Program-made: the position numbers and the translations under genes
The notes under the pieces: model-generated
Databases searched by the model: none
Told to the model about the DNA's origin: nothing
Seen by the model: the letters and a program-made list of their open reading frames with translations, nothing else
IMG/VR virus record: IMGVR_UViG_3300020182_002648
Location: 62,001-126,000 of that record
Direction: 5' to 3' (one strand)
DNA from: a virus
DNA length: 64,000 nt
Shown here: in pieces, positions 31,164 through 54,886 of the stretch
Layout of the letters: each line of letters begins with the position of its first letter
Numbering within the stretch: the first letter of the stretch is position 1

Positions 31164-31868
31164 TCAGAACGCTGTATGCCTAGGTTTTTCTTCAGTATAA
31201 TTACCGTACGGGTGAAGCAACCGGTTCATTTTGAACTTATCCCTGGGGTAGTAATTCCACTTATCGTCCAATATGAACCAATGATCACGTAATATTATGT
31301 TCAGAAAAGGTTCATCCTTTTTATAGTGCTCATGGTGACTGTATTGCCTTATCAACCTCATGTAATCATCAGTTGTGTTGATATCGAGCCACGTATTAAT
31401 ATCAAAAACCATCATACCAGCATTAAAAAACTTCCTGGACTCATCCCCATTAGCGTATAACTCTGTTAGATTGTAGTATTTCAATGATTCATGTACGGTT
31501 TTTAGTATATAATGAGGCACAGCTCCTATAGGTTGTTGGTTAAGATCATGTCTCCATAGATCATATATACATCCAGTAGCAAACACATCACTATCTAGAA
31601 AGATCGCCCGGGTGATTGATTCATCTAACTTGCGGAGTATCTCTGGGATATACACCCGCTGGTGCATCAATGGTAGTTTGCTGATTTCATCTGATGGTTT
31701 AACGTACGTTATGTTATCATGAGAGATCATATCATCACTGGTTATTATATAGTAGTTGATATCACTCTTATCTTTCCTGTAGAACATGTTGATATAGTTG
31801 ATTGATTTTAATGTGAGCTTATGGTATGTTGAACCGCTCACTAGATAGCAGATATTAACACTCATCAT
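31164..31868 (-). CDS. GT8-family glycosyltransferase, 234 aa
   Basis: AIFLDSDVFATGCIYDLW gives the DxD metal/nucleotide-sugar motif (Asp92-Ser-Asp94), and FFNAGMMVFDINTW is the classic GT8 (LgtC/glycogenin) block. Retaining transferase using UDP-sugars. The C-terminal EEKPRHTAF echoes the GT8 KPW-type end. Last gene of the 14-kb sugar operon; overlaps the GT32 gene by 4 nt. Confidence 0.85.
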   Translation of the reverse strand: MMSVNICYLVSGSTYHKLTLKSINYINMFYRKDKSDINYYIITSDDMISHDNITYVKPSDEISKLPLMHQRVYIPEILRKLDESITRAIFLDSDVFATGCIYDLWRHDLNQQPIGAVPHYILKTVHESLKYYNLTELYANGDESRKFFNAGMMVFDINTWLDINTTDDYMRLIRQYSHHEHYKKDEPFLNIILRDHWFILDDKWNYYPRDKFKMNRLLHPYGNYTEEKPRHTAF

Positions 31869-32572
31869 ATCTTCAACTTAAATCTATAAGTATCGTCTTC
31901 AATCCATGAGCCTATATTCCAATGCATGCCAGCACCAGTGAGGGGTATGTTCATGTTTGATTCTTGTATTTTATATCTCTCTGTTTTTGAGAGAGACTCA
32001 AAACTTTGATAGTCATGAGTAGTAGTGTTACAAATTGAACTGAACTTGTTATGACATACAGTCATATACCCACCGGCGGTGGTCATCATCACTTGATGAT
32101 GTTTATCTGCCTCAGAGTCTCTACTATCAAGAGCGAATTGCAATCCTCTTATACAATAATTCATGAACTTGCTTCCTGGTACTGAGTAGAATATACTGTT
32201 AGTCAATAATGGTTTATCATGAGGCCATCCTCCTAGACCATGCCCCGGGTGCTCTTCAAACAACACAACCTCGTCAGTAAGTAGGTGGCTAACATCTTTA
32301 AAACATTCGATGTCTAAGTCACAATACAATCCACCATACTCATATAATATTAAGTATCTGCTCATGTCACTCCTAGATATATTACACTCATAACGCAAGT
32401 ACAACCCCATCAACTCCGGAAACTTCTCTTCTATCAATTTCTCTATAGATTCATCAGTCCAGAACACGTGGTTCCAATCACGGTGGTGCTCAATCCATGT
32501 TGCTCTCCAATCAGCAAGCTTTGGTGGTATGTTATCATCTGACCACATCTGATGAATTGTCTTACAGGTCAT
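31865..32572 (-). CDS. GT32-family glycosyltransferase, 235 aa
   Basis: ATG at 32572 inside the upstream stop region. KTIHQMW, SRSDMSRYLILYEYGGLYCDLDIECF (DxD at 85-87) and GAGMHWNIGSW match GT32 (OCH1/capsular type) transferases. Cytoplasmic, no membrane span. Likely adds a hexose to a growing glycan. Confidence 0.85.
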   Translation of the reverse strand: MTCKTIHQMWSDDNIPPKLADWRATWIEHHRDWNHVFWTDESIEKLIEEKFPELMGLYLRYECNISRSDMSRYLILYEYGGLYCDLDIECFKDVSHLLTDEVVLFEEHPGHGLGGWPHDKPLLTNSIFYSVPGSKFMNYCIRGLQFALDSRDSEADKHHQVMMTTAGGYMTVCHNKFSSICNTTTHDYQSFESLSKTERYKIQESNMNIPLTGAGMHWNIGSWIEDDTYRFKLKI

Positions 32573-33083
32573 AAATATCCACCCGGTCCTTTCCATAGAA
32601 TTTATTGAAACCATGCTTCTCTAAAATACATTGATACACTGGATTGTCATCATTATACGGAAAGCAGAAACTGGTCGGTATCAGGTTGTGATCTCTAAAA
32701 CGTCTCATCATTAATTTTGTATCATTTACAGTATTAAACCCGGCATGCTTGATATGCATGTGACTGTGACCACCTATATAACACCTCGGAGTACTGGCTA
32801 TCTCTTGTATTTGTCTCCAGTTCATGTAGTGTGATAGGTCACCGGTTTCGAACAGCTTGTCATGTGCTTTGTGGCATTGTATAAATTCATCTGATTGTGA
32901 TTGATCATCCGGAGCTACTATACCTGTACTGATGAAGAATATTTTATCGGTATCAATGCTATTAATCTTATCAAGATGTAAGTACTGTGTATATAGCCCA
33001 TCATCGAACGTCAATATATACTCATCTAGAGGAAGATCAAACATCCACTCCGCGACTTCATGTATCATCAATACAGGTTTCAT
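32562..33083 (-). CDS. NodB-type polysaccharide deacetylase domain, 173 aa
   Basis: ILTFDDGL (metal-binding Asp27/Asp28) and GGHSHMH (His106-Ser-x-x-His110) match CE4 motifs 1 and 2; CFPYNDDN resembles motif 3. Short but all core motifs present. No signal peptide, so it probably acts on a cytoplasmic sugar intermediate. Overlaps both neighbours. Confidence 0.85.
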   Translation of the reverse strand: MKPVLMIHEVAEWMFDLPLDEYILTFDDGLYTQYLHLDKINSIDTDKIFFISTGIVAPDDQSQSDEFIQCHKAHDKLFETGDLSHYMNWRQIQEIASTPRCYIGGHSHMHIKHAGFNTVNDTKLMMRRFRDHNLIPTSFCFPYNDDNPVYQCILEKHGFNKFYGKDRVDIYDL

Positions 33084-33727
33084 CTCTTGAACACTAACTT
33101 AAATCCCTCAGCGAGTTCGTACCCACACAAGCTTCCATGATACTGATCTCGAGCGGTTATCATCCGCAAGCTTACTGGATCAGGTGAGGGTCTGAGTTCC
33201 GTTGTATATCTGCTTATCATCTTCATCTTGATGTTAGCATGCTGAGTTATATCCTCATATACATTGAGCTGTTTAGGCTCATGTCCCCATTCAGTGCTGC
33301 CAGGTATCGTGAACTCATATAATTCATTGACAGGACTAGACTCTCTCATCCGACAAGCGACTCGCGTTGCACTAGATATTATCTGATGATCCTTATGCAC
33401 GTCACCATTGTAGTGTGTGTACACAACCGTCGGTTTAATTGACTGTATGTATTGATACATGATATTACACAACTCTGTTTGAGGTGTTTGATCTAGCCTG
33501 GTGTCTGAATATCCATGAAATGATGTATCTATGATACCAACATCCTTGCAGTTAGCAAGGCATGCCTTCTTCCGAGGAGATCCAACCTTCTCATGACCCG
33601 GTCTATCCCCCTTGCAGAACACCATCAAGTGTACATCATTTTGCTCACATAACTTTGCAGTAGTACCGCCCATGCCTAACTCAAAATCATCTAAATGTGC
33701 TGTCAGTAACAGTATTTTCTTTTTCAT
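33080..33727 (-). CDS. LmbE/PIG-L-type sugar deacetylase, 215 aa
   Basis: ILLLTAHLDDFELGMGGT gives the zinc triad region (His11, Asp13, Asp14), and YTHYNGDVHKDHQ the second motif. Family members remove N-acetyl from GlcNAc-linked substrates (MshB, LmbE, PIG-L). Together with the NodB-type gene it suggests deacetylated amino-sugars are made here. Confidence 0.9.
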   Translation of the reverse strand: MKKKILLLTAHLDDFELGMGGTTAKLCEQNDVHLMVFCKGDRPGHEKVGSPRKKACLANCKDVGIIDTSFHGYSDTRLDQTPQTELCNIMYQYIQSIKPTVVYTHYNGDVHKDHQIISSATRVACRMRESSPVNELYEFTIPGSTEWGHEPKQLNVYEDITQHANIKMKMISRYTTELRPSPDPVSLRMITARDQYHGSLCGYELAEGFKLVFKR

Positions 33728-34644
33728 ATCATGCTCTTGATTATTGAGCGAACATCATGGATTGGTGTGAAGTATTGATTGATCTTATCAGTGTTCGGTT
33801 TGCGTTTGTATATTTCACCGAACTGATCACTGAAGTCATCTGCATGCGGTCTGTATATAATTTTACTCTTGCTGCCTATGACATCTATCACAGTTTCTGC
33901 TAGTTGTGATATGGTTAGTACATTACTTGTGTTACCAATATTGTATATTTCCCCTGCATGCTGATCCATTGACACAATGTCAAGCATACTAACAGCATCT
34001 CTGATGTCACAGAAAGTCCGGTATTGTGTACCATCACCATAAACAATTATATCTTCATCTTGTTTGGCTAGCTCCACGAACGTTGGTAACACCATACCGT
34101 ATTTACTCAGCTGCCCCTCGCCTGTGACGTTGAAGAACCTTGCGATAGTGTGAGGGAATGAGTATGTTTTGAGTAGAAATTCTGACATGAGTTTAGCACA
34201 AGCATATCCCCAACGTAGGGTGTCAGGTGAGCCAATCTTCAGCGTGTCTGTCTCTCTAGCCTCTTCTGTATTACCATAAACCTCACTTGTGCTAGCAAAT
34301 ACGACACGATTGTTATACTTCTCGAATAGCGGAAACATGTTGTTGTTTATGTTGAATGAATTGCGTAATGTACCTTGAGGGTCTCTGTCTACATACTTGA
34401 CACCAACTGAACCAGCCATGTGATAAACCAGATCAGCATCAGCGAGCTCTTTCTCGATCGTCAAGATGTCGTGCTGTGTACTTAGATCAACTGATAAGAC
34501 AGTCCGGTTGGGGCCTTTGATAAACACTTGACCGGTACTAAAATTATCGATAATAGTTACATGATCTTGTTGCTCTACATAAAACTCAGCCAGATGAGAG
34601 CCTATGAAACCTCCACCACCGGTGATTATTATTTTTTTATCCAT
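33724..34644 (-). CDS. NAD-dependent sugar epimerase/dehydratase (SDR), 306 aa
   Basis: GGGGFIGSH nucleotide-binding loop at 9-17, FASTSEVYG, and Tyr147-x-x-x-Lys151 active site, as in extended SDRs of the UDP-glucose 4-epimerase/UXS group. Works on nucleotide sugars. Substrate not visible. Confidence 0.9.
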   Translation of the reverse strand: MDKKIIITGGGGFIGSHLAEFYVEQQDHVTIIDNFSTGQVFIKGPNRTVLSVDLSTQHDILTIEKELADADLVYHMAGSVGVKYVDRDPQGTLRNSFNINNNMFPLFEKYNNRVVFASTSEVYGNTEEARETDTLKIGSPDTLRWGYACAKLMSEFLLKTYSFPHTIARFFNVTGEGQLSKYGMVLPTFVELAKQDEDIIVYGDGTQYRTFCDIRDAVSMLDIVSMDQHAGEIYNIGNTSNVLTISQLAETVIDVIGSKSKIIYRPHADDFSDQFGEIYKRKPNTDKINQYFTPIHDVRSIIKSMI

Positions 34645-35228
34645 TGTTTTATTTCTTGTATACTTTTCTTGTTGGTTACATCATACTCATGTGTAATGTT
34701 CGTGCTTGCTAATATCGGTTTAGTTTGATCGACAAACTCCTTCAATGTTATATATTCAATAACATTGTTCATGTCATCTGCCGGGATGATATTCTCTCGT
34801 ATTTGTCTCATTAGGCCTTTCTTTCTGCATTTACTATACACACGTGGTATACGCAGTATGATATAATTATTATATACACTCTTGATATAGTTTTCCATCA
34901 AAAGTTTACAGTGACAATATATGTTATCAGGTTGTAATGCTCCAGCAGTACTAGCAAAGATAAATTTAGCATCATGCTTTTTTGTTAGCTCTATCATATT
35001 AATAGTACCGTTTACAATAACATCAACGACACGTGCAGCGTCCTTGAAATCATACACGTCTGACGGACCCGCGAAATGGTACATATTGTCAAAATTGCTT
35101 ACATTGTCACTAATGTTTAGTATGTCACCATAGTCCACGTTACTACCAATTACATGCTGCTTCAGAGCACCAGCGAGATACCCTCTCTGACCACCAGTGA
35201 ATAGGTTAACTGGTGGAATCCCACTCAC
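34629..35228 (-). CDS. Short epimerase-like SDR, 199 aa, probably degenerate or specialised
   Basis: GTG start. GGQRGYLA loop, YHFAG, FASTAGAL and YCHCK (Tyr-x-x-x-Lys) follow the extended SDR order, but the protein is about 100 residues short and lacks a clear substrate domain. Overlaps both neighbours. May be a reductase/epimerase or an inactive partner. Confidence 0.65.
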   Translation of the reverse strand: MSGIPPVNLFTGGQRGYLAGALKQHVIGSNVDYGDILNISDNVSNFDNMYHFAGPSDVYDFKDAARVVDVIVNGTINMIELTKKHDAKFIFASTAGALQPDNIYCHCKLLMENYIKSVYNNYIILRIPRVYSKCRKKGLMRQIRENIIPADDMNNVIEYITLKEFVDQTKPILASTNITHEYDVTNKKSIQEIKQWIKK

Positions 35229-35694
35229 AGTTGTCCCATCCTAACCTTATGAAATTGGTGTGATTGTTTCTTAGACAGGATGTCAGAGTCTTAACAAATC
35301 CAGATCGATTTACCGGTTCATGACATTCAACACCCAATGCTTCCATTAATTTATAATCATCATCTGGTATATGACCGATACCACATCTATCATAACAGCC
35401 ATTATGACCAGCGTTGATCAGAGTGACATTATTACCATAATTCACTACGCTAAACTTTAACTGTTCATACGCTCGTTGATACACGAACCCAGCCACACCA
35501 TACACTATGACTCTCTTACCAGATCTCGCCAATCCTCCTGCAACGTTCATCATATTTGTCTCTTGAATACCAAAATTTAAACATCTCTCCGGGAACTTTT
35601 TCTGAAACTTCTTAAATCCCCACATGTCAGCATGCATGAAGATAGTGTCCTGGTTGTTATATTTACTTAAAAATGTATCAAGTGTCGCTCTCAT
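35206..35694 (-). CDS. Transketolase C-terminal half (pyrimidine-binding domain), 162 aa
   Basis: RCLNFGIQETNMMNVAGGLARSGKRVIVYGVAGFVYQRAYEQLK matches the TK/DXS Pyr domain; the Glu in GIQET is the residue that activates ThDP. NAGHNGCYDRCG is the usual G-rich turn. It must pair with the separate N-terminal half (36558-37352). The two halves are split by the 296-aa U32-like gene. Confidence 0.88.
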   Translation of the reverse strand: MRATLDTFLSKYNNQDTIFMHADMWGFKKFQKKFPERCLNFGIQETNMMNVAGGLARSGKRVIVYGVAGFVYQRAYEQLKFSVVNYGNNVTLINAGHNGCYDRCGIGHIPDDDYKLMEALGVECHEPVNRSGFVKTLTSCLRNNHTNFIRLGWDNCEWDSTS

Positions 35695-36568
35695 TATAAT
35701 TTTTCAGATATAGATTGAGTTCATGATTGTAGTCCTCAAATGTCATCTCTCTACCGGTTATTTTAAAATTAGATATACCTCTAGTCATTAATTGTTTGAT
35801 CTGATTGGCCTTGAGGTCCATTCCATAACTATCTCCATACTTATTGATAGTAGGCCCGTGACCCTCATCCGGTTCGAAGCCAGAAGATTTGAGGTAATCA
35901 GATCTCTCAGATAACCAACATTCCTCTATTCTATACATCTCTTTCTCTCCCGCTTCTTCCCATGGCTTCTTATATGTTCTATTTTGTTTGGCTATCTCTT
36001 CAAAATGCTCACCATAGTAAGGACAGTTATAAAGACATGTGTCGTTCAACATTATCTCGTATTTGGATTGTGTTAATTTATCGAACTGGCTATCGAACAC
36101 ATGCTCACATCTAGGTACTATATAATCGTATATTTCCTCTAGTCGAGTGTATAGTGAGATATCCTCCTCACTCATCGGGACTGTTATCTTCCCAAACCCA
36201 GTGATGGACCGTGTATGCTTATACAATGGATATTTGTCCTTAACATAACTTACCAGATCTTCATTGACTGATATAATCACGTTACCCGCCCGGTGAAACT
36301 TCTCTAATAACTCATTACCAATCTGGTCAGTCAGATCAACAACAGGGTTTGTGAACGTCAACGCTATAGTGATTTCATTCCGATAATAGAAGTCAATTGT
36401 GTCATCATCATGAAACACATCGCGATTTATTCTACCACCATTCCATGGACAGTTATTAATACCATCATATACGGTAATATCTATATCCTTGAGCGTCGAC
36501 TTGTTACGAAATATATACATCTTCAACTCAGTACTCTTACTGAACGCACCAGCTACATTAAACCTCAC
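35678..36568 (-). CDS. U32-peptidase-like / Fe-S TIM-barrel-like protein, 296 aa
   Basis: KYEIMLNDTCLYNCPYYGEHFEEIAKQNR (about 167-195) with NxxCxxxCPxxxxH is reminiscent of the Cys/His cluster of U32-family proteins (YhbU/UbiU-like), several of which bind 4Fe-4S and act in oxygen-independent hydroxylation. Remaining domains fit a barrel only loosely. It lies between transketolase halves and overlaps both, so it probably acts on the same pathway. Assignment is by motif only. Confidence 0.4.
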   Translation of the reverse strand: MRFNVAGAFSKSTELKMYIFRNKSTLKDIDITVYDGINNCPWNGGRINRDVFHDDDTIDFYYRNEITIALTFTNPVVDLTDQIGNELLEKFHRAGNVIISVNEDLVSYVKDKYPLYKHTRSITGFGKITVPMSEEDISLYTRLEEIYDYIVPRCEHVFDSQFDKLTQSKYEIMLNDTCLYNCPYYGEHFEEIAKQNRTYKKPWEEAGEKEMYRIEECWLSERSDYLKSSGFEPDEGHGPTINKYGDSYGMDLKANQIKQLMTRGISNFKITGREMTFEDYNHELNLYLKNYNESDT

Positions 36569-37352
36569 AATACATCTCCTCCATCGGTTTATAATGCCAC
36601 TTGACTGGGTCCTTCTCCATATAAGGCACTCCGTGACCTTTTGTGGTCTTAAAAAAGAATATACGTGGACGGGGTTGATTACGTGAGAGTGGTGAATTGA
36701 CTGAATGATTCCAGTTATCTTTAATTTTATCTACGTCATGTCCCTCAACGTCATATGTAAGCCAGTCGTAACCTCTACACATGTCAATAATCGGATCGAC
36801 AGTAAGTACGTTATCAGTGAATCCGGTCACTTGCATATTATTATAATCTACAGTTACTAATACATTATAGATCCTATGGTGACCTATATATTGTAATGCT
36901 TCTAATGTACTACCCATTTGTAGAGTTGCATCAGTTATATTGACCCATACTAGTTGTTGAGGATTCGCGAGAGCTATACCGGTTGCTACTCCTAAAGCAT
37001 TTCCCATGGTCTCCTCACCGTAATCTACAAACTTGATCTCATCATGCTTCACACCAACAGACAGGTCTTCAATTTCCGTTAGATAGCCGAGATCTTTCCA
37101 TAGAATATAGTAGGCTTGAGACCCAAATGGTTTACCTAAGACAATCCTATCACGGTATGGCTTGATATATTCATTTGTAAACAACACATCGATATATGTC
37201 AGCATTGAGAGAGCAGACGGTACGTGTGTTAGCTGGTGATCAAATGAATATTGAAGAATTCTATTACTGATAGAGCGCACTAATGTATTATAGTATATTT
37301 CTAATGTAAATGCAACTACGGTCTTACTTTTTCTTGGGTATATAAAACTCAC
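36558..37352 (-). CDS. Transketolase N-terminal half (ThDP-binding domain), 264 aa
   Basis: GEETMGNALGVATGIALAN, VNITDATLQMGSTLEA (aligned with GDGxxQEG), VDYNNMQVTG (Asn of the ThDP motif) and KTTKGHGVPYME are transketolase landmarks. GTG start overlaps the radical-SAM gene; the exact start is uncertain. Likely transfers a ketol unit to an aldose to build an unusual sugar backbone (inference). Confidence 0.88.
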   Translation of the reverse strand: MSFIYPRKSKTVVAFTLEIYYNTLVRSISNRILQYSFDHQLTHVPSALSMLTYIDVLFTNEYIKPYRDRIVLGKPFGSQAYYILWKDLGYLTEIEDLSVGVKHDEIKFVDYGEETMGNALGVATGIALANPQQLVWVNITDATLQMGSTLEALQYIGHHRIYNVLVTVDYNNMQVTGFTDNVLTVDPIIDMCRGYDWLTYDVEGHDVDKIKDNWNHSVNSPLSRNQPRPRIFFFKTTKGHGVPYMEKDPVKWHYKPMEEMYCEV

Positions 37353-38271
37353 CTTTACAACAACTCCACTTACATTTGGTGTAGTTGTTGGCTCTGATCT
37401 TGAATAATGTCTTATTGTCCAGTATATTTCCGATAGGCTTCTCTAAAGTATTTGCACAACACATAAAATAATCTCCATTTCCGTTTATTATAATATACTC
37501 CTTACCGACAGAGCAAGTCCATCCCTCGAATGAAATGCCCTCTCTGTACAGATCATTTGTATCATGAGTTTTAATTGTACCGTCTTGGTATGTTACTTCG
37601 TACTCTTCATGGAACATGGCATGCTCATTAACAAAATCGCTATACATGTCAGTGGTGCTTCGATAGTCAATGTAGCTATGAATAAATTCTATCTTGTTCT
37701 TGTATGGTCGCGTCAACATCTGCTTACTGTTGTCTATGATGTCATTCTTACTCTCTTCATCATGCTCCAACATCACATCTACCTTGCCTAACATCCCTGC
37801 ATTATCAATCATATCAATTTTATCTATAAACTTCTTAAAGTCCTTGGTGTATTTATGATGATATGATACGTTTATATCTAACTTGTTGTCTTTATGATCG
37901 TCAATCAATTCCTGTATATATCCATGGCCTACTGACAGGTTTGTTTGTAATTCAACAATAACAGATTTGTTCATGTTGAATATAAATTTGATCACATCTC
38001 TGCATTTAGGGTGTGTTGTAGGTTCTCCGCCATGGAAGTATATCCGGAAGTTTGTGTGATCTATGCAGTCAATCGCCGAGGTGATTGTATTTTCAATATC
38101 ATCTATATTGTAGTGATGACCGTATTTCCAGTGACAATACTCGCAGTCATAATTACAGTAATCTGTTATACGTAATTGGAATTCATAGTAAGGTTCATCA
38201 AACTTATGTACTCCTTGTTGAGTATTACCTCCTCGGTCGGCTTTTATATTATAATCTTTTGGTATAATCAT
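37324..38271 (-). CDS. Radical SAM protein with C-terminal Cys cluster, 315 aa
   Basis: CNYDCEYC at 39-46 binds the 4Fe-4S cluster with SAM; FHGGEPTTHP is the GGE-type SAM motif. The C-terminus has WTCSVG, YFMCCANT, then CKWSCC, i.e. SPASM/twitch-like auxiliary Cys. Overlaps the TK-N gene start. Substrate unknown. Confidence 0.9.
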   Translation of the reverse strand: MIIPKDYNIKADRGGNTQQGVHKFDEPYYEFQLRITDYCNYDCEYCHWKYGHHYNIDDIENTITSAIDCIDHTNFRIYFHGGEPTTHPKCRDVIKFIFNMNKSVIVELQTNLSVGHGYIQELIDDHKDNKLDINVSYHHKYTKDFKKFIDKIDMIDNAGMLGKVDVMLEHDEESKNDIIDNSKQMLTRPYKNKIEFIHSYIDYRSTTDMYSDFVNEHAMFHEEYEVTYQDGTIKTHDTNDLYREGISFEGWTCSVGKEYIIINGNGDYFMCCANTLEKPIGNILDNKTLFKIRANNYTKCKWSCCKGEFYIPKKK

Positions 38272-38281
38272 AACAATCCTC

Positions 38282-39028
38282 TCACATTAAAAAGCATTTA
38301 TCGTGATTACATATACCGGTATGGTTCTTCCGGTGACAACAGTTATATAGACTTAAATCAGGAGCGTACAGGAAGTACACGCCAGTATACAAGCAAGGCT
38401 TGCCTCTAGGAGAATGACCCTCCCATAGTTTAGATCGATCTGTTCCTAGTCTTTCAACTTCCTCAAAATTAATTACCTTTTGCCAAGCCGGAGATCGTTT
38501 CAATCGATTATAATCCTTCAATGACTCACCAGACACACCATCACCAAAGTCTGCCACCGGTGTCAAGTATGTATTTTTAACATGTTCTTTAACTTTCATA
38601 TAATACTCAATCGCACCTCTGTTGGTGTACATGACGTCGACTATTCGTATGTCAAGATTTGTTGGTATGTTTATATCATCTAGAGCTATTTGCGTGGGAT
38701 GTATTGATACTTGTAATGTTACTGGTTCAGTTATCTTACTCAGAACCCTTTGGCTCTTGTTCGATAAATTTGTTTGTATGACGAATGGTATTTTATGTTT
38801 ATTGAATGTACGTATTATATACTCTATGTGCTGGTGTAGGAACGGCTCTCCACCGAATACAAATATTTCTACTCCTGGGTATGTCTCACCTAACATTATT
38901 ATAAATTCCTCTAACCGTGTCTTATCTAGCACCGGTTTTATTGATGGATCGAGATTTGTACAGTACGTACAACTATAATTGCACAACATAGTGACCTCCC
39001 ATTCCACCATTGTTGGAATTTTATTCAT
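38282..39028 (-). CDS. Radical SAM protein, 248 aa
   Basis: CNYSCTYC at 16-23 and FVFGGEPFLH. Shorter than its cluster mates. C-terminal Cys: GKPCLYTG, YNCCHRKNHTGICNHDKC. Distant from the others in sequence but same overall plan. Confidence 0.88.
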   Translation of the reverse strand: MNKIPTMVEWEVTMLCNYSCTYCTNLDPSIKPVLDKTRLEEFIIMLGETYPGVEIFVFGGEPFLHQHIEYIIRTFNKHKIPFVIQTNLSNKSQRVLSKITEPVTLQVSIHPTQIALDDINIPTNLDIRIVDVMYTNRGAIEYYMKVKEHVKNTYLTPVADFGDGVSGESLKDYNRLKRSPAWQKVINFEEVERLGTDRSKLWEGHSPRGKPCLYTGVYFLYAPDLSLYNCCHRKNHTGICNHDKCFLM

Positions 39029-39036
39029 TACACTTA

Positions 39037-39825
39037 TTATAATATAATTTCGCGACGTTTTCCACTCAACATTATATTAAACTTTCTCACGTCAATGTCA
39101 TATATTCTATCATATGATTCCTTGGGAACATCTGTACCACCGTCTATCCATATGGAATTATCTATCCGAGGTGATAGTTGATACCGGGAGAGTTTTGGGT
39201 ACTTGATTTGCGTCCTATCATCACTTATAAAAAAATCATCAGTATCAATATCAGTAAAGCTAACGCACGGTTTATACTGTTCTGAAGTAAATTCGAATGA
39301 CTCTTTCATGTTGTTACGAATAAGTTCAGGGTTACTGGAAACCAATTCCGGTTCCGATAACTCAATATACTCTTTATATAATGTTTTCTGTAACTCAATA
39401 TCAGTACTATCCAATAGATTATCCAATTGAAAATCAATAACTTGTCTCATCACAGATTTGAGTAGTTTGGTTGCTAGCGGTACCCCACCAATCACTGATA
39501 CTAAGTCTTCCTCACGCATAACACGCCAACCAGTGGTCAACAATTCGATCCCTATATAGTTTGTAGTGTCAAACACGACCTCTGGTAATATATCATGTTT
39601 ATTAGACTTTAAAATGCCTGGCATCCAGTTGATCATATCATACTTTGGCCAGATTACATTCTTATTATATATTTTTAAGAAATTTTCCGTCACTGTATCA
39701 AAATAACATTCAAATAGAATACCGCTTTCCGGTAACGGGTTGCCTTTTGGTAAGGTTTCACGTGGTACTGATTTTATTCTATTGGCTGTAAGCTCTTCAT
39801 TCAGCTGTATTATATCGATATTCAT
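39037..39825 (-). CDS. Unrecognised protein, 262 aa
   Basis: Late-type box 6 nt before ATG, inside the sugar operon. SVIGGVPLATKLLKSVMRQVIDFQLDNLL is helical; the C-terminus is strand-rich. No motif I can name. Position suggests a cluster-specific enzyme or a virion protein that is the glycosylation target. Confidence 0.55.
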   Translation of the reverse strand: MNIDIIQLNEELTANRIKSVPRETLPKGNPLPESGILFECYFDTVTENFLKIYNKNVIWPKYDMINWMPGILKSNKHDILPEVVFDTTNYIGIELLTTGWRVMREEDLVSVIGGVPLATKLLKSVMRQVIDFQLDNLLDSTDIELQKTLYKEYIELSEPELVSSNPELIRNNMKESFEFTSEQYKPCVSFTDIDTDDFFISDDRTQIKYPKLSRYQLSPRIDNSIWIDGGTDVPKESYDRIYDIDVRKFNIMLSGKRREIIL

Positions 39826-39831
39826 ATATAT

Positions 39832-39839
39832 TATTTATT
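39832..39839 (-). promoter_or_regulatory. T4-late-like promoter box
   Basis: AATAAATA, 6 nt, ATG of the 262-aa gene; an internal late promoter within the sugar operon. Confidence 0.6.
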
Positions 39840-40647
39840 CTCTAGCATTCATTATAACAATTTTATCAAGGCTATCAGCATATTTGGCGATCAACGCAGA
39901 GTATTCTCCTTGTGTTGGTATGAATATGTCTCCTGACAGCATGTCTAACAAGTCACTATCAGCATCACTTGAACGGAATTGAGTTTTTATGCCACGACAT
40001 GTGAAGACATCACCTACCATATACATCTCATCAACAATCTCATCTAGATGTACCTCTACTTGCGAATCTCTAGTCCCGAGATCTTCGTGTGTTCCGGAAT
40101 ATATTGTAATACTATCGCAATCAAGCTCGATCAATATATCAGCAATTTCATGAAATTTCTTAATTGGTGTGTACATTCTCCATTCTTTACCTACATGTCT
40201 AGAGATGCTCAGAACATCACCTGTTCTCAGATGTAACTGAGCAATGGTATCAGGGGAGCTCAATCTACTCTCTATTAAATTAAAGAATTTACGCTCTCTC
40301 GTGTCTATATTATCACTTATATCAATTGACTGTATGAACATAGATAACAAACTCCCAGGGAAAGCATCTACCATCCACTCTAGATCACTCATCGAATTAC
40401 AATGAGTGGCATAATTATAAAAATCACCCAACCTGTAGAGGTATCTCTCATCATCAACCGCGTGACAGCCAGTAAACCGGTCTAGATCAGGTGCTCTAGA
40501 GCTCTCATCAGAGCATGTATGTATTGTGTCTGTATATATTATTGAGAATAATTTTGCCCTCATGTTAAAGTTCATTGATCTTCGCTCCGGAGCATACTTT
40601 ATGTTAGAGTTTAAATACATACTATCCTTAAGTTGTGCCCGGGTCAT
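39835..40647 (-). CDS. Possible fucosyltransferase-like glycosyltransferase, 270 aa
   Basis: AQLHLRTGDVL resembles the R-x-G-D loop of GT11/GT23 fucosyltransferases, and SSDADSDLLDMLSGDIFIPTQGEYSALIAKY resembles their C-terminal donor-binding block. Similarity is weak and by eye. Overlaps the upstream radical-SAM gene by 4 nt. Confidence 0.4.
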   Translation of the reverse strand: MTRAQLKDSMYLNSNIKYAPERRSMNFNMRAKLFSIIYTDTIHTCSDESSRAPDLDRFTGCHAVDDERYLYRLGDFYNYATHCNSMSDLEWMVDAFPGSLLSMFIQSIDISDNIDTRERKFFNLIESRLSSPDTIAQLHLRTGDVLSISRHVGKEWRMYTPIKKFHEIADILIELDCDSITIYSGTHEDLGTRDSQVEVHLDEIVDEMYMVGDVFTCRGIKTQFRSSDADSDLLDMLSGDIFIPTQGEYSALIAKYADSLDKIVIMNARE

Positions 40648-41594
40648 TGTTTCTTCTCTTTGTATATTTTTAGCAGACCGTCACAGTTACATGAAGCGTG
40701 TGGACATTTCACTGGACAAACCCGGGTTATATTTTTAAAGAAATATATATCTCTCACTAGATCCACTGGCTCATCAAAACATACCCTATGTGCGATTCCA
40801 TCATATGATATCTCATAATTATTATTCCAGCAATCCCAGTCCTTGAAGTTAGTAAATTTGTTTTCAAATATATTATAATCATTGTACATCTGCTTGTCTC
40901 CGGTTGCCGTCTCGAATGTAAAGTAATCCGGGTAATCCTTAAATCGTTGAAATTCACTATAAAACTCTTGATTGTATTCTTCTAGCTTATGTACATCTCC
41001 TTCTGCATATAAAAAGTGAGGATGTATCACAACTTGATCGCCATATTTTTCGATCTCATCGACAAATTTATGAGTCTTGTTCCATAGACTCTTATTTGGT
41101 GATAGCATTACATTTATCTTCACTCGGAATTTCCTTCGGGTAGCGATCTCAATATTATCTAGTAGTTTCTTGAAGTTCTCGCCATACCGAGATTCATACT
41201 CAGGGTGAAAGCTGAACAGGAAATACAATCGCTCGTGAAACTGATGCTGCTCAAATATACTAGATCGTTGTGAACCGTTTGTAGTTATATACAATCTACC
41301 ATCTTGATGTGTAGTGACTGCATCCAGGCACCGGTTTACAAGCTCATCATAATGTGGATGGATTGTCGGTTCTCCTCCTAATAATCCTAGAAACACTGGT
41401 AAGCTACTTCTAGCAATATTATTTATCACTAACTTTTGCTTGAACCACTTATCTCTTCGTCCCCACTCTTCGCCATAATCTTTCATCGCATAACAATATG
41501 TACACTTGAAGTTACACTGAGTGCTAACATCCCAATGAATATATAACCGCTGCACCTTGTGCTTTGTGTCGTATTGCTTTACATAATTATTCAT
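40644..41594 (-). CDS. Radical SAM protein, SPASM-like, 316 aa
   Basis: HWDVSTQCNFKCTYCYA (Cys27/31/34), LLGGEPTIHP, and C-terminal CWNN, RVCFDEP, VCPVKCPHASCNCDG. Closest relative in the window is its neighbour at 41587-42516 (QCQYRCDYCYF, LLGGEPTLH), indicating duplication. Confidence 0.9.
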   Translation of the reverse strand: MNNYVKQYDTKHKVQRLYIHWDVSTQCNFKCTYCYAMKDYGEEWGRRDKWFKQKLVINNIARSSLPVFLGLLGGEPTIHPHYDELVNRCLDAVTTHQDGRLYITTNGSQRSSIFEQHQFHERLYFLFSFHPEYESRYGENFKKLLDNIEIATRRKFRVKINVMLSPNKSLWNKTHKFVDEIEKYGDQVVIHPHFLYAEGDVHKLEEYNQEFYSEFQRFKDYPDYFTFETATGDKQMYNDYNIFENKFTNFKDWDCWNNNYEISYDGIAHRVCFDEPVDLVRDIYFFKNITRVCPVKCPHASCNCDGLLKIYKEKKQ

Positions 41595-42516
41595 GTTTAT
41601 AAAAGTTATAACAATCAGTACATGGGCAACCAGTAGTCAGAGGACAGGTAACACATTCACTTATGTTTTTATTATTTAATAGTAATGGCTCACCGGTGCA
41701 ACCATTACGAATCGATCCGTCTGGTTGTATATCCCAAAACGTAGCCTTGCACGACCATCCATAGAAGATATCTAATTCCTTCAATCGGACGTTATAATCG
41801 TCTATAATTGTTGTGTTGTTATCCTTGTCAGTAAACTTAACATCCTGAGATCTAAATAGAGATACACCATACCTCTGTTCAGTATCTCTTAAGAATATAT
41901 TAAACTCATCCACGAACTCATCAGTGTACTCTTCATTCCATACATCACTAACAGAGCTCAGCATTTGAAGCCCTATAGGTACTCCATGGTCAAGTAGATC
42001 GATGATAACTGCCTTTATCTCACGCCACATCTTTTCATATATATTAATATTACATACATACGATACATGCTTAAACTTGTTCACCCCCACGCTAGTCTCC
42101 ACAAACTTATCTTTAGATTTTTCATATTGAGGATGATATGAGCCGTTGATCTTAAGTTTGTTAAACTGCTGTTGATCGTACTTTGAGTACCACTCTATAC
42201 TTCTAACCATATTTGTGTGTAGGTTTATCTCATTACATTTATTATTCATGCATAGAGATTTTATGATTATATCTATATCATCATGAAGAGTTGGTTCTCC
42301 ACCTAATAGATCCATATTAAATTTTGGTATTGTCTTGAGAGATACCCGCTTTAAAACATTAACGTAAGCAGTTTTATTTCCTGTGGGTTCAACTTTGTTT
42401 AGACTCTTCTTGAAATAACAATAGTCACACCTGTATTGACATTGTGTATTGATATGCCACTTTAAGAATATCGTATCATGATCCTCTCTTCCGGAAGTGA
42501 TATAATTATTCTTCAT
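41587..42516 (-). CDS. Radical SAM protein, SPASM-like, 309 aa
   Basis: Cys26/30/33 in QCQYRCDYC, DLLGGEPTLHDD, and C-terminal WSCKATF, NGCTGEP, ECVTCPLTTGCPCTDC. ATG at 42516 gives an 11-nt overlap with GT2; an ATG five codons upstream is possible. Tandem paralogue of the next gene. Confidence 0.9.
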   Translation of the reverse strand: MKNNYITSGREDHDTIFLKWHINTQCQYRCDYCYFKKSLNKVEPTGNKTAYVNVLKRVSLKTIPKFNMDLLGGEPTLHDDIDIIIKSLCMNNKCNEINLHTNMVRSIEWYSKYDQQQFNKLKINGSYHPQYEKSKDKFVETSVGVNKFKHVSYVCNINIYEKMWREIKAVIIDLLDHGVPIGLQMLSSVSDVWNEEYTDEFVDEFNIFLRDTEQRYGVSLFRSQDVKFTDKDNNTTIIDDYNVRLKELDIFYGWSCKATFWDIQPDGSIRNGCTGEPLLLNNKNISECVTCPLTTGCPCTDCYNFYKHE

Positions 42517-43165
42517 AGAATCTAGTATCATTATTAAGTTCAGGTACGCTTATGTTGTCCATCCCATCAGTAGTCTGTACCCATTTCTGTTCAGCTATAT
42601 ATTTAAAACTACATCCAATCTCTGCTAACATTCCTAGCAAGTGGTAGTCATTTCTTATATTATTACCACGTGGTACTTGATCTATCAGGTTGTTCTTAAA
42701 TATGATCTGACCTAATTGAAAATACTCATCATCAAAGACGTTAAAGAACTCACTCAAGTTAGTGAGAGACTGATACTTGCGATTTTTCCGCATCATCTTA
42801 TATGCACAAACCGGGCCGTAATATTCAATTTCCGGTTCAGAAATATACTCGATATACAGTACATCAGAATCATATACTATGTTGTCAAAAAAATTACTTC
42901 TAATATAATCATCATCTTCCAGAATATAGACATATTCCCCTCCGGATTGATCATATAACAGCTGATATATATCGGATATATCGATCGATGTTTGATAGTT
43001 ATATCGAATCTGTACCTGAGCGCTATGTATTTCGGTTATATCTTTACTGTCATTGTTAACTATGATTTCGATCGGATAATCTGGTAGATTATTGAGTATA
43101 CTATTTATTGATCGTTTAAATAGTTCCGGGCGATTGTGTGTTGGTATTAATATCGATAACTTCAC
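42506..43165 (-). CDS. GT2-family glycosyltransferase, 219 aa
   Basis: SILIPTHNRPELFKRSINSILNN and the EDDD metal site (YVYILEDDDY) are GT2 landmarks. No membrane span, so it works in the cytoplasm. 4-nt overlap with the upstream gene. Confidence 0.88.
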   Translation of the reverse strand: MKLSILIPTHNRPELFKRSINSILNNLPDYPIEIIVNNDSKDITEIHSAQVQIRYNYQTSIDISDIYQLLYDQSGGEYVYILEDDDYIRSNFFDNIVYDSDVLYIEYISEPEIEYYGPVCAYKMMRKNRKYQSLTNLSEFFNVFDDEYFQLGQIIFKNNLIDQVPRGNNIRNDYHLLGMLAEIGCSFKYIAEQKWVQTTDGMDNISVPELNNDTRFYEE

Positions 43166-44097
43166 GTTGCTTCTAGTATATTGATGATATCATCGCTCTC
43201 GGACAATCGAATACTATCAAAATCACTTTCGATATCCAGCATGCGATTCTTCAATCCAGTATCATGGTCAAGGTAATCATTGTCAATATTATGATAGATT
43301 ACATCTCGGTCATAATGTTTACATTCTGCTGGGAGTCGAGGGCTACCATCAAACATCCCTCGTGTAGGTGTGTATATATAAGTGTTGAATCGACTGAACA
43401 TATCTTGTAGAGGAGGTACAGTAAACTCAAACCGGTCATCTGGAATACTTCTGCATTGTTCTGTTATCACAACATATTTCTCAAACTCATAACTATCAGC
43501 CACCTGTAACAAGTCAGTATCTGAGATTTGTCTGCAGTTGATAGTAGCGTATATCAACCCAGTTGATTCTGTACATGTGTCAACTTGCTTCAATATGTCG
43601 AAGTTTATTTTCTTCTTGTAATTTATACTCAACTTAGTATCCTCTGGATTGCACAGATCATACACTCGATCATCTTGCAAAATAGTCACATCATACGGTA
43701 CATCATACAGTGTATCAAACCGCGAGCATTTGAAGGAATACACGCGATCAAAAATCAACTTCGTGCCTTGTCGCTTCAATCTGTGCAAATCACCATCTAC
43801 AAATAGAATATTATTGCCTTTGATAAACCTCGGTAGATTTGTGAAGTAGGTAGAGTTCTTAATTGAATCTAACTGATCATCGCTCAAGCTATACTTACGT
43901 GTTATCACTAGTTTAAATTCATCCCAACATTTAAACGTGTCACCGAACAGTATACATACATTAAGCTTGGTTGATAGTATCACGAAGTAATCGATTATTT
44001 CGAAAACATGACCTGATATTCGATGTGGTTGATCTGGGTACCAGGTCATCGATAAACATATATCATACTTCCGATCAAGTATGGTCATGTCACTCAT
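43162..44097 (-). CDS. Putative glycan-cluster protein, 311 aa, possibly GT-like
   Basis: Start uncertain among four nearby Met codons (44109-44088). C-terminal TYIYTPTRGMFDGSPRLPAECKHYDRDVIY recalls the donor-side end of some GT-B transferases (GxxxSPRLPAECxxY). No DxD or GT-A pattern. Named only by context. Confidence 0.45.
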   Translation of the reverse strand: MSDMTILDRKYDICLSMTWYPDQPHRISGHVFEIIDYFVILSTKLNVCILFGDTFKCWDEFKLVITRKYSLSDDQLDSIKNSTYFTNLPRFIKGNNILFVDGDLHRLKRQGTKLIFDRVYSFKCSRFDTLYDVPYDVTILQDDRVYDLCNPEDTKLSINYKKKINFDILKQVDTCTESTGLIYATINCRQISDTDLLQVADSYEFEKYVVITEQCRSIPDDRFEFTVPPLQDMFSRFNTYIYTPTRGMFDGSPRLPAECKHYDRDVIYHNIDNDYLDHDTGLKNRMLDIESDFDSIRLSESDDIINILEAT

Positions 44098-45121
44098 CAT
44101 ACATCCCATGACGATAATGATTCACGTCTGTGATCTTCTCACCTGGCTCAGGATTCGGCTTGCATGCGGTCACTTGCTTCTCGATACCATCACATATGTT
44201 ATAATACTTACAACTCATACACTCAACTGGCTTGACGTAATCCTCTTCACGTGGTTTACGCGCTGCATCATAAGCCATGTCTATCTTCTCTTCATGACTG
44301 TACTGTTTTGATACGTCAACACTGTAATCATAAATCTCTTTGTTCCAATCATATCTATCATAAATATGTTGATATTGATTGCATACATACTTCTCATATC
44401 CTTTCATGTAACAATAGGGTGTGTATCTAACGTTTATATATCGTACGTGATGCTTTATGTTATCGATACAAATTTTAATATTGTCCGTTACCTCCGTATA
44501 ATCTATAGCATCCGCAAACTTGTTATTTACCCAATAATTTAGAGTCAAGAAATTAACTTCTAATGGGTTTAACCTTTTGATAACCTCGTGATAACTCTTG
44601 AGACCTTCACAATTTCTTTGATACACTGTACAGTTTACTCTCACTACCATGTCATGAGCATGAGCTAGTTCGATTGCCTGGTTAATCTTCTTCCAGGCAC
44701 CCTTCCGGCGGACAATCTCATCATGGCTTTCCTCATCATATCCATGAACACTGAACATTATCTCTTTGAGTCCGCGCTCCTTGCTCTTCAATAAGAATTT
44801 CTCACGAGCAAATGCCCATCCATTACTCAATGTACTTATGTTACTGAATCTTGTATTACAGTAATCTAGTATATCAAACCATTGCTTATGCACGCTGCTC
44901 TCTCCGCCAGATAAATCAACCTCGTCAATACCGTATTTGTGGAGTATATCTATACGTCTCTTTATTTCATCAAAATCTGTCACTTGATCGAGCATGCCTT
45001 GGTAATAACAAAACTCACAGTCATAATTACAGAACGTACCAGTGTCCAGCTTGGCACGGTTACATCTAGGAGTGGTATAATCTTTTCGTAGTAGTACGGT
45101 GCTGAACTTGTTGCAATTCAC
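44090..45121 (-). CDS. Radical SAM protein with C-terminal Fe-S motif, 343 aa
   Basis: GTG start 5 nt after TATAAT. CNYDCEFC at 31-38, VDLSGGESSVH, and C-terminal CMSCKYYNICDGIEKQ, a C-x2-C-x5-C site typical of SPASM-type auxiliary clusters. First gene of the operon. Sequence recalls enzymes that act on small molecules or peptides; the substrate is unknown. Confidence 0.9.
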   Translation of the reverse strand: MNCNKFSTVLLRKDYTTPRCNRAKLDTGTFCNYDCEFCYYQGMLDQVTDFDEIKRRIDILHKYGIDEVDLSGGESSVHKQWFDILDYCNTRFSNISTLSNGWAFAREKFLLKSKERGLKEIMFSVHGYDEESHDEIVRRKGAWKKINQAIELAHAHDMVVRVNCTVYQRNCEGLKSYHEVIKRLNPLEVNFLTLNYWVNNKFADAIDYTEVTDNIKICIDNIKHHVRYINVRYTPYCYMKGYEKYVCNQYQHIYDRYDWNKEIYDYSVDVSKQYSHEEKIDMAYDAARKPREEDYVKPVECMSCKYYNICDGIEKQVTACKPNPEPGEKITDVNHYRHGMYDE

Positions 45122-45126
45122 ACTAT

Positions 45127-45155
45127 ATTATATACTACCTGACTACAATTTGCAA
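45127..45155 (-). promoter_or_regulatory. Promoter of the radical-SAM/sugar operon, leaderless
   Basis: TTGCAA, 17 nt, TATAAT, 5 nt, GTG of the first radical-SAM gene. Its -35 abuts the stop of the 372-aa gene. The only strong sigma70-type promoter found for the 14-kb operon. Confidence 0.8.
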
Positions 45156-46274
45156 TCAGTCTTTCAATGATGTGATTCGATCTTCTATAACATCAATCCA
45201 TGTACGATCAACCACCTTAATTTCACAGTCCGGGTTGTCATGGAGATCTATTTTTTGTTCATCGGTAAGTTCATCAGAGATTGTGAAGGTTTCACCTTGA
45301 TATATATCAAGCAGCTCTTGCAATTGTTCCGGTTCGTTTACCTCACTGAGTATATTGATCAATTGTTGTAATTCAAAATTCATTTCAGATGGATCGATAT
45401 CAATTTCCTCTTCCACGAACTCTGGTTCAAGTCCCTTGTTTAGTGTTTCATCCATCATGATGTCATCATCAACCAACTGTTTGATAGTGTCTCCGGATTC
45501 AATAATTGATATCATCAATTCATTATTAGGCCCCGGTAACAGTAAACTGGGCCAAAATCTGAACAACTCCTGGAATGTATTGTATTGTGTTAGGTCAGTT
45601 TCCTGTGGTATGTCTCTGAACATCTGCTTGATAGTGTCAATGTCTGCTAAATCGTCCTCACTTGTTTGCGCTTGCTTTGCTTCCTCTTCCAGTTGATCGA
45701 GCTCAACAAAGGCATCCTCGCGTTTGGTTCTGATCAGGTTCATGTATTCCTCCCTCATGCAGTGCAGGTCATCATCACACGCACAAGCTAAATCATGTAT
45801 GTTATCAAACTTCAAATTCATTGATTTGAGCGTGTACCACACATCAAATGTTTCCGGGTCTTGTACATTGGTTCTAGTGTGAAGTATCACATCTTCTACA
45901 TGCTGATTATCACACTTGACATGCTTAGAATCACAACAGCATTGTATTTCATCCTTCATCTTCTGTATGGTTTCCAATGTTCGGTCATGGTCGTAACCAC
46001 CGTCATCATCCACGAACACTGACATTATGCCAACATTATCAACCGCATGCACCACGAATTTTTCTGCAAATATATCCCACATCACGATTTGACTCGTGTC
46101 AACATCAGGTATGTCAGTGGTATCGATCGCTTCACAGCAGTAACAATCCTCATGATGAGGCCACATTGTGTAAAATCTATTGGAACCGAAATTGTCTTGA
46201 TCGTCTTGATATATCTCCAAGCGTATCACACTGTCAAGCATTGCTTGTTTAATTTTTTCTATTAGTATCGACAT
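45156..46274 (-). CDS. Hypothetical acidic protein, 372 aa
   Basis: ATG start after the 515-aa gene's stop... (2-nt gap). Very acidic throughout, with CCEAI, CCCDSKHVKC and CACDDDLHC patches that could bind metal. C-terminal coils (QLEEEAKQAQ). Neither GT nor rSAM motif. Position at the head of structural genes suggests a virion or assembly protein. Confidence 0.5.
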   Translation of the reverse strand: MSILIEKIKQAMLDSVIRLEIYQDDQDNFGSNRFYTMWPHHEDCYCCEAIDTTDIPDVDTSQIVMWDIFAEKFVVHAVDNVGIMSVFVDDDGGYDHDRTLETIQKMKDEIQCCCDSKHVKCDNQHVEDVILHTRTNVQDPETFDVWYTLKSMNLKFDNIHDLACACDDDLHCMREEYMNLIRTKREDAFVELDQLEEEAKQAQTSEDDLADIDTIKQMFRDIPQETDLTQYNTFQELFRFWPSLLLPGPNNELMISIIESGDTIKQLVDDDIMMDETLNKGLEPEFVEEEIDIDPSEMNFELQQLINILSEVNEPEQLQELLDIYQGETFTISDELTDEQKIDLHDNPDCEIKVVDRTWIDVIEDRITSLKD

Positions 46275-51830: not shown

Positions 51831-52325
51831 ATGCACGAGCAATTATTAGAACTAGCTGACTCTCCACCGGACTTAGAGCAGTACACACCTTACGTTCAAT
51901 ATGGACCACCAGTTTTAATTTATGGTGTCCCTATCAAGAATAGCTATGATCATGAGAGGTTGACTCTCAATGAGAGTTTAGAACCCAAAAGATTGAGAGT
52001 TGGTACTGATTGCTTTTATGGCTTTATATTGCAACCGACACGATTGATGAGCAAGGTGTGTAGTGTTGCAACTAGTGTGCCGATGGATCACCCAGACTGT
52101 GTCAATATGTATAAGAAGAGACTCGCCATGTGTGAATTGACATGTGACAATTGTTGGGCTCACTTGAGTGAAAATATTTTTCCTATTGATGCGAATAATT
52201 TACCTCTCTTAGCTATAAATAGTCGGTACATGCGGATGGCGAACCCCATGCCACTACAATCAACTCGCACCAAACTTCCCTGGTTCACACAACACGCACA
52301 AATGAAAATTTTTATCCTCAAATAA
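51831..52325 (+). CDS. Hypothetical protein, 164 aa
   Basis: ATG 6 nt after the -10. Contains DCFYGFILQP, CSVATSVPMDHPDCVNMY, CELTCDNCWAHL: five to seven Cys in a central stretch (CxxxCxxC) could bind metal. Not a radical-SAM layout (no GGE). Ends one base before nrdA's ATG. Unknown role. Confidence 0.55.
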   Translation: MHEQLLELADSPPDLEQYTPYVQYGPPVLIYGVPIKNSYDHERLTLNESLEPKRLRVGTDCFYGFILQPTRLMSKVCSVATSVPMDHPDCVNMYKKRLAMCELTCDNCWAHLSENIFPIDANNLPLLAINSRYMRMANPMPLQSTRTKLPWFTQHAQMKIFILK

Positions 52326-53965: not shown

Positions 53966-53973
53966 AAGTATTC

Positions 53974-54017
53974 AGGGGTATCTCATAAGTAGTTATATGA
54001 CGCTTAGAGATACCCCT
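53974..54017 (+). promoter_or_regulatory. RNA hairpin enclosing the homing-endonuclease start codon
   Basis: AGGGGTATCTC (53974-53984) pairs perfectly with GAGATACCCCT (54007-54017). The 22-nt loop carries the ATG (53997-53999) and a late-promoter box. No U-tract, so it is not a typical terminator. Confidence 0.85.
53984..53991 (+). promoter_or_regulatory. T4-late-like promoter box in the hairpin loop
   Basis: CATAAGTA, 5 nt, ATG of the GIY-YIG gene. Transcripts starting here would lack the 5' arm of the hairpin. Confidence 0.65.
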
Positions 54018-54785: not shown

Positions 54786-54787
54786 TT

Positions 54788-54886
54788 ATGATAAAAATTA
54801 CAAAACTTAAACAAAAGCAACCAGTGTATGATATCACTGTAAAAGATAATCACAATTTCTTCGGAAATAATATACTAGTACACAAC
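54788..54886 (+). other. Split intein C-terminal half (IntC), 33 aa
   Basis: MIKITKLKQKQPVYDITV then HNFFGNNILVHN, blocks F and G ending His-Asn, followed by Cys+1. It starts with its own ATG 2 nt after the endonuclease stop. Length and motif fit known split inteins. Confidence 0.92.

Follow-up and report, generated by a model that had tools for sequence, protein, structure and literature searches.

The window analyzed here is a 64,000-nucleotide (nt) stretch of viral DNA, bases 62001–126000 of the 146,809-base IMG/VR record IMGVR_UViG_3300020182_002648, which may be incomplete. It holds 18 open reading frames (ORFs; g1 to g18) arranged in tandem on the minus strand from position 45121 down to 31164, with 14 of 17 junctions overlapping by 4–53 nt and three bearing gaps of 8–10 nt. 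In order of transcription, the cluster encodes a radical S-adenosylmethionine (radical-SAM) protein (g1), GT-B and GT2 glycosyltransferases (GTs; g2, g3), two radical-SAM proteins (g4, g5), two unassigned proteins (g6, g7), two further radical-SAM proteins (g8, g9), the N-terminal half of a transketolase (g10), a U32-like protein (g11), the transketolase pyrimidine half (g12), a short short-chain dehydrogenase/reductase (SDR; g13) and a second SDR (g14), PIG-L and NodB-type deacetylases (g15, g16), and finally GT32 and GT8 glycosyltransferases (g17, g18). The original prediction of an overlapping 18-gene phage operon with five radical-SAM enzymes, a split transketolase and deacetylases is borne out by the ORFs, their motifs and their Pfam families, as are the enzyme classes it named. 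Catalytic motifs are intact in every cluster enzyme for which a motif could be named. In the five genes tested against relatives, third codon positions are 2–4 times more divergent than first and second positions, indicating that those five truly encode proteins and are under purifying selection.

The carrier is a T4-like phage, with a gp23-type capsid, tail fibers and a ribonucleotide reductase (RNR) in the record. Its gp23-like capsid protein (L008:12437-13894) finds its best matches among cultured phages in cyanophage capsids (34–35% identity). No photosystem gene was found in the record, and a nucleotide-level search of phages returned no match.

The five radical-SAM ORFs are g1 (44090..45121, 343 amino acids, aa), g4 (41587..42531, 314 aa), g5 (40644..41594, 316 aa), g8 (38282..39028, 248 aa) and g9 (37324..38271, 315 aa), and they are the only radical-SAM genes in the record. 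Each carries the CX3CX2C motif, a GGE motif and the additional cysteines near the C-terminus that had been claimed for it, and on these sequence features all five are assigned to the radical-SAM superfamily. Four exceed the Pfam cut-off for Radical_SAM (PF04055; g1 4.4e-18, g4 1.3e-7, g5 2.1e-10, g8 3.3e-10), while g9 lies just under it (1.3e-5; 25.9 vs 29.5 bits) with intact motifs and orthologs at 61–62% identity. The SPASM-like g1 is the most conserved gene of the module, with CX3CX2C at residue 31, GGE at 72 and C301/C304/C310/C320; its orthologs occur in Campylobacter phage CP220 (46% identity) and in 18 IMG/VR contigs (47–72%). Both g4 and g5 end in a C-terminal cysteine cluster. The g4 cysteines lie at 31/35/38 and then at 261/278/293/296/302/304/307, and in g5 the cluster cysteines and GGE are invariant across 12 orthologs. 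The short, twitch-like g8 retains its cluster cysteines in all of 8 orthologs (56–60% identity), and g9 has a SPASM/twitch-like C-terminus. Four to seven C-terminal cysteines are conserved per protein, and the SPASM Pfam family was matched weakly, by g9 alone (0.012). Searches with single radical-SAM proteins retrieved few cultured relatives besides Campylobacter phages, and the g4 protein search found relatives in two short contigs only.

One lead to a sugar-like substrate comes from g8, which has a weak phmmer match (E 0.004, over its N-terminal 100 residues) to BtrN, the radical-SAM aminocyclitol dehydrogenase of the butirosin pathway. Both proteins are about 250 aa long and combine a radical-SAM domain with C-terminal cluster cysteines, but similarity is limited to the radical-SAM core that such enzymes share. 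A profile of the g8 family gave no BtrN match below 0.01, so we treat this likeness as a lead only.

Surrounding these enzymes are genes of sugar transfer and tailoring. The product of g2 (43162..44109, 315 aa) is predicted to be a GT-B glycosyltransferase from an AlphaFold model (predicted local distance difference test, pLDDT, 90) whose top Foldseek matches in the PDB are nearly all GT-B (E about 1e-3, probability 0.97–1.0, template-modeling (TM) score 0.37–0.47). GT2 (g3; 42506..43165, 219 aa; PF00535 7.8e-8, EDDD motif), GT32 (g17; 31865..32614; PF04488 5.3e-17, DLD motif) and GT8 (g18; 31164..31868; PF01501 6.5e-24, DSD motif) were identified by family and motif. A further possible glycosyltransferase, g6 (39835..40647, 270 aa), has a 25% identical paralog (L007:12830-13561) in another glycan cluster that the genome carries. 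That second cluster (L007:4443-18790, record bases about 24.4–38.8 kb) also contains an epimerase, GT92, GT10, a GT1-like and a sulfotransferase-like gene. No family match was obtained for g7 (39037..39825, 262 aa).

Of the two SDR proteins, g13 (34629..35228; PF01370 7.8e-8; GGQRGYL, STA and YxxxK motifs) is a short epimerase/reductase and g14 (33724..34644; PF01370 4.1e-41; TSEVYG and YxxxK) is a nucleoside diphosphate (NDP)-sugar epimerase, dehydratase or decarboxylase, whose PDB matches include uridine diphosphate (UDP)-glucuronate decarboxylases. The PIG-L/LmbE N-deacetylase g15 (33080..33727; PF02585 6.6e-21, AHLDD motif) resembles BshB1, below the cut-off. The NodB-type polysaccharide deacetylase g16 (32562..33083; TFDDG and HSHMH motifs) is 38% identical to an annotated CP220 polysaccharide deacetylase, and an ortholog matches Polysacc_deac_1 (PF01522) at 1.4e-4, just under the cut-off.

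Judged by sequence, g10 (36558..37352; PF00456 6.9e-11) and g12 (35206..35694; PF02779 2.4e-6) fit a split-chain transketolase, with separate pyrophosphate and pyrimidine halves, thiamine diphosphate (ThDP)-binding Asp and Asn (D141 and N171, invariant in the g10 family) and a catalytic Glu (GIQE, invariant in 11 g12 sequences). The best PDB match of the g10 family profile is 6yak, the N-terminal component of a split-chain transketolase (3.4e-23), which likewise has its two ThDP-binding domains on separate genes; the version in the window differs in being shorter and in having an intervening gene. This gene, g11 (35678..36568), encodes a remotely U32-like protein. Peptidase_U32 (PF01136) was matched by nine of 12 g11 family members (best 7.4e-4, window member 0.09), none shown over the cut-off. 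U32 peptidases and U32-like hydroxylases are recognized by a family profile match together with a four-cysteine iron-sulfur (Fe-S) site; in the g11 family C40, C178 and C182 are invariant. Its structure model is partly barrel-like (pLDDT 78) and Foldseek returned only weak, barrel-like matches (methylenetetrahydrofolate reductase, TM about 0.45), so we claim no function from the fold.

A genome-neighborhood search for the same gene set, proposed with the original prediction as a check, was run with all loci grouped at >90% DNA identity over at least 4 kb. Searches with g1 (18 IMG/VR loci) and with a g11 alignment (30 loci) were far more productive than those with other single radical-SAM proteins. 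The result was 27 distinct locus groups, nearly all from phages, including one truncated locus and one contig from a bacterial chromosome, and the recurrence of the gene set across them indicates that the cluster is not a chance assembly. Every one of the 30 viral loci bearing g11 also carries g2, GT2, both transketolase halves and g13, along with 4–8 radical-SAM genes, which argues for functional coupling. One freshwater relative (L025) has 10 radical-SAM genes, and whole related records have 3–12. Counted by group (n = 27, with some modules cut by locus ends, g1 biased by selection and radical-SAM types assigned by best score), g1 was present in 27, g2 in 26, GT2 in 25, g9-type in 24, g5, g13 and both the N and C halves of the transketolase in 23 each, g14 in 21, g11 and PIG-L in 20, g8 and g4-type in 19, NodB-type in 14 and GT32 in 2; g6, g7 and GT8 were found in none. 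The conserved core therefore comprises g1, g2, GT2, g5, the split transketolase and g13, usually with g8, g11, g14 and PIG-L, and the periphery varies in g6, g7, GT8, GT32 and in how many radical-SAM genes, and of which type, it contains. Module content differs even between the window phage and the phage of record G002, whose capsids are 74% identical.

One relative encodes GT2 and a radical-SAM domain in a single fused protein (L029:11008-12576, 522 aa), which links radical chemistry directly with the transfer of glycosyl groups. This fusion bears on a different account of the cluster, in which the radical-SAM proteins are peptide or protein maturases that introduce cross-links or epimerized residues into a virion protein glycosylated by the accompanying GTs, in the manner of mycofactocin or of ribosomally synthesized and post-translationally modified peptides (RiPPs). 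In NCBIfam the radical-SAM proteins mostly resemble SPASM peptide maturases, with every score far under the cut-off, and a fiber gene adjoins the cluster, as such an account would suggest. However, neither a short precursor peptide nor a partner for peptide recognition was noticed in the cluster, the epimerases, deacetylases and transketolase are hard to account for in this way, and the fusion speaks against it as well; we consider peptide maturation rather unlikely.

Optional genes in the relatives broaden the chemistry. In freshwater phages a halogenase-family gene (tryptophan halogenase, PF04820, 1e-66; L024:19027-20298, with relatives in L025–L029) takes the place between the transketolase halves, and a 2-oxoglutarate (2OG)-Fe(II) oxygenase is also added. 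Relative L020 encodes an arginine-deiminase/amidinotransferase-family protein, and UDP-glucose-dehydrogenase-like, cytidylyltransferase-like and GT25 genes occur elsewhere. These additions fit sugar tailoring. The halogenase, amidinotransferase-like enzyme and oxygenase are also reminiscent of natural-product chemistry, and the module might instead yield a diffusible small molecule, aminoglycoside-like or halogenated, rather than a bound glycan. A cyanophage cluster of halogenase and sugar genes has been interpreted, in the accessible part of that study, as serving either to decorate the capsule or to make a secondary metabolite (PMC7824862). It resembles the freshwater relatives in combining halogenase, 2OG oxygenase and sugar genes in a T4-like phage but has a carbamoyl-transferase/methylase core, and radical-SAM genes are not mentioned in that part of the text. 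A diffusible product sits poorly with four or five GTs, with a neighborhood of tail fiber genes and with a cluster in which no exporter or resistance gene was noticed, and appears very unlikely to us.

The claim that a radical-SAM density like that of this cluster is extraordinary for a phage finds no support: beyond the counts in the related records, CP220 has 11 radical-SAM proteins and CPt10 has 12 according to Timms et al. (2010), who called the number highly unusual (PMC2853527), and Nishimura et al. (2017) counted 12 such genes in the T4-like ocean genome TARA_ERS488813_N000010 (PMC5332604). The sections of the latter paper available to us interpret these genes as Fe-S metabolism and report no neighborhood for them. 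According to the available text on the Firehammerviruses CP220 and CPt10, these phages possess an interchangeable module of five radical-SAM genes and an amidinotransferase (PMC2853527). As in the window, five radical-SAM genes stand together with NDP-sugar-transferase-like genes in that block, and CP220 further shares the g1 ortholog, a trio of epimerase, PIG-L and polysaccharide deacetylase in the same order, and a transketolase N-like protein. In CP220, however, the corresponding parts are dispersed over four places, the block's radical-SAM genes are only remotely similar to those of the window, and g11, the transketolase C half and a g8 ortholog were not found in the two CP220 stretches examined. 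The window cluster in turn has no amidinotransferase, though five radical-SAM genes and GTs are present.

Authors of both studies proposed, in the portions accessible, that radical-SAM or Fe-S proteins act as metabolic helpers, raising the fitness of the infected cell or its Fe-S turnover (PMC2853527, PMC5332604). Tight co-occurrence with glycosyltransferases, deacetylases and epimerases argues against such a role here, as does a search of the record for an A-type Fe-S carrier gene (PF01521), which found none, and we find it quite improbable. Another comparable system is the pelagimyophage host-recognition cluster, a variable island beside the tail fibers, bounded by VrlC and gp14, that holds GTs (GT8 most frequent) and radical-SAM cassettes (PMC7029224); these are also T4-like phages, and fiber and GTs are adjacent in the window too. 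The part of that paper at hand has no description of a split transketolase, deacetylases or a conserved radical-SAM core. The original prediction had allowed that the cluster might prove common and already characterized; it is common, but no function has been characterized, and the accessible portions of the open-license literature assign none to the gene set (PMC2853527, PMC5332604, PMC7029224). The accessible open-license literature appears to contain no description of the fuller gene set, of its conservation or of its presence in a bacterium.

A tail fiber gene (47829..50636, minus strand, 935 aa; PHROG baseplate and tail-fiber families, best 1.5e-36) is the first of three co-directional genes just upstream of the module, and its C-terminal tip is common to fibers of the relatives. 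Directly ahead of g1 lies a gene for a cysteine-rich protein (45156..46274, minus strand), relatives of which directly precede g1 in marine loci; it is a possible partner or acceptor. A putative promoter-like site (TTGCAA-17-TATAAT, 10/12 sigma-70-like; 45127..45155, minus strand) ends 5 nt ahead of the g1 GTG. The claim that one leaderless promoter leads the cluster stands only in part. Sigma-70-like sites are about equally common in the data (89) and in shuffles (77.6 ± 9.6), and read-through into the cluster is equally possible because the upstream genes, fiber included, are co-directional with gaps of 34, 2 and 4 nt. The site falls within a motif, [GA]TAGTATATAAT, that occurs more often in the window than in shuffles (28 vs 11 ± 3.2) and could be a promoter element of the phage. 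Its occurrences include window positions 45127, 50635, 23784 and 51825, and several genes start within 10 nt of a TAGTATA. The T4 late-promoter sequence TATAAATA showed no enrichment.

The location beside fiber genes also bears on the possible targets, for which the original prediction had listed virion, DNA and host surface. T4-like phages glucosylate their DNA, and a module rich in GTs could decorate it with a complex sugar. The module nevertheless adjoins fiber genes rather than replication genes, and neither a PF00303 deoxycytidylate/deoxyuridylate (dCMP/dUMP) hydroxymethylase of the thymidylate-synthase type nor a PTPS/QueD gene was found in the 146.8-kb, possibly incomplete record. DNA is therefore the least likely of the three targets, and we judge its decoration highly improbable; a sugar pathway remains the best reading of the module.

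We regard the 18 genes as probably constituting a phage glycan-biosynthesis module in a T4-like host-recognition region, whose chemistry is likely the tailoring of sugars or oligosaccharides. In the pathway we propose, for which we infer the order of steps, the substrates and the acceptor, the SDR enzymes g13 and g14 would generate keto or epimerized nucleotide sugars, g10 and g12, as a two-part ThDP enzyme, would add or move a carbon unit, and the deacetylases g15 and g16 would expose amines. The five radical-SAM proteins and U32-like g11 may carry out oxygen-independent oxidation, deoxygenation, epimerization or hydroxylation of the sugars or the growing chain, and g2, g3, g17, g18 and perhaps g6 would build an oligosaccharide of few residues on a cytoplasmic acceptor. 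At most five GTs would imply a short chain. None of the 18 proteins has a strongly hydrophobic segment (the top 19-residue average, 1.67, belongs to g2, a predicted soluble GT-B), which distinguishes the module from gtr-type serotype-converting cassettes, with their flippase, bactoprenol glucosyltransferase and specific GT, and suggests a cytoplasmic acceptor or borrowed host export. The product probably decorates the phage's own fiber or virion proteins or changes the host surface. Fiber adjacency, in the window and in 8 of 27 groups, and variability among phages with similar capsids fit host recognition, without telling virion from host surface.

Several points weigh against this proposal. 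SPASM/twitch enzymes act most often on peptides. Among the 18 proteins we saw no exporter, polymerase or ligase, so that delivery to the host surface would need host machinery. Fiber tips lie near the module in a minority of relatives only. Two genes lack an assignment, with no Pfam, PHROG or PDB match for g6 and none in Pfam, PHROGs or the related loci for g7, and the fold search with g11 retrieved no U32 structure, leaving its U32 kinship weak.

A pattern scan for g11 across 84,980 species genomes yielded one confirmed locus, on a 52-kb contig of a Bdellovibrionales metagenome-assembled genome. The module there (L030:1-18692, L061:1-4959; MEQL01000015.1) includes many radical-SAM genes; the first 23 kb of the contig contain orthologs of most core genes in mixed orientation, with g1 as a 168-aa fragment, and the module starts beside a phage-type fiber gene with an S74 chaperone domain. 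The remainder of the contig encodes an ammonium transporter, a class-V aminotransferase, an MFS protein, an MgsA-type ATPase and a transfer-messenger RNA, with no abrupt change in GC content at the border. We considered whether this was a misbinned phage contig and rejected the idea on the strength of those bacterial genes and the transfer-messenger RNA. In the g5 tree the bacterial copy falls among phage copies, on the branch starred there (97/92), and the g2 and transketolase trees do not resolve whether it nests among them. Among 369 genomes of that phylum, g11 proper was found in no other, with two weak matches in 599- and 796-aa frames. We read the bacterial module as a horizontal acquisition, with assembly error as the alternative. 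The pairing of module and fiber is of interest because Bdellovibrio uses S74-type fiber proteins in prey recognition (PMC10769870). It is conceivable, though unlikely, that a dedicated pathway evolved in phages, with serial radical-SAM steps joined by ThDP, U32-like and, in relatives, halogenase and 2OG enzymes, makes a heavily modified glycan unparalleled in cells for attachment to receptor-binding fibers, and that a Bdellovibrionales bacterium adopted the module together with the phage-type fiber gene for surface fibers of its own.

Elsewhere in the window, the large subunit of RNR (52325-56014, plus strand) is interrupted by a split intein. The junctions read ...SNL/CVVGDTEID at the end of the N part and ...LVHN/CTEI in the C part, and both halves match PF14890 below the cut-off, with a GIY-YIG endonuclease gene (53997-54785) between them.

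Phage radical-SAM clusters have been noted since 2010 without an assigned job, and the conserved core described here ties them to glycan synthesis. It also narrows the enzymes worth assaying to a few, making a long-standing oddity testable. If our reading is correct, these modules would represent new sugar chemistry and new substrates for radical-SAM enzymes, and would point to the tuning of surface recognition by phages and perhaps by a bacterium of a predatory lineage.

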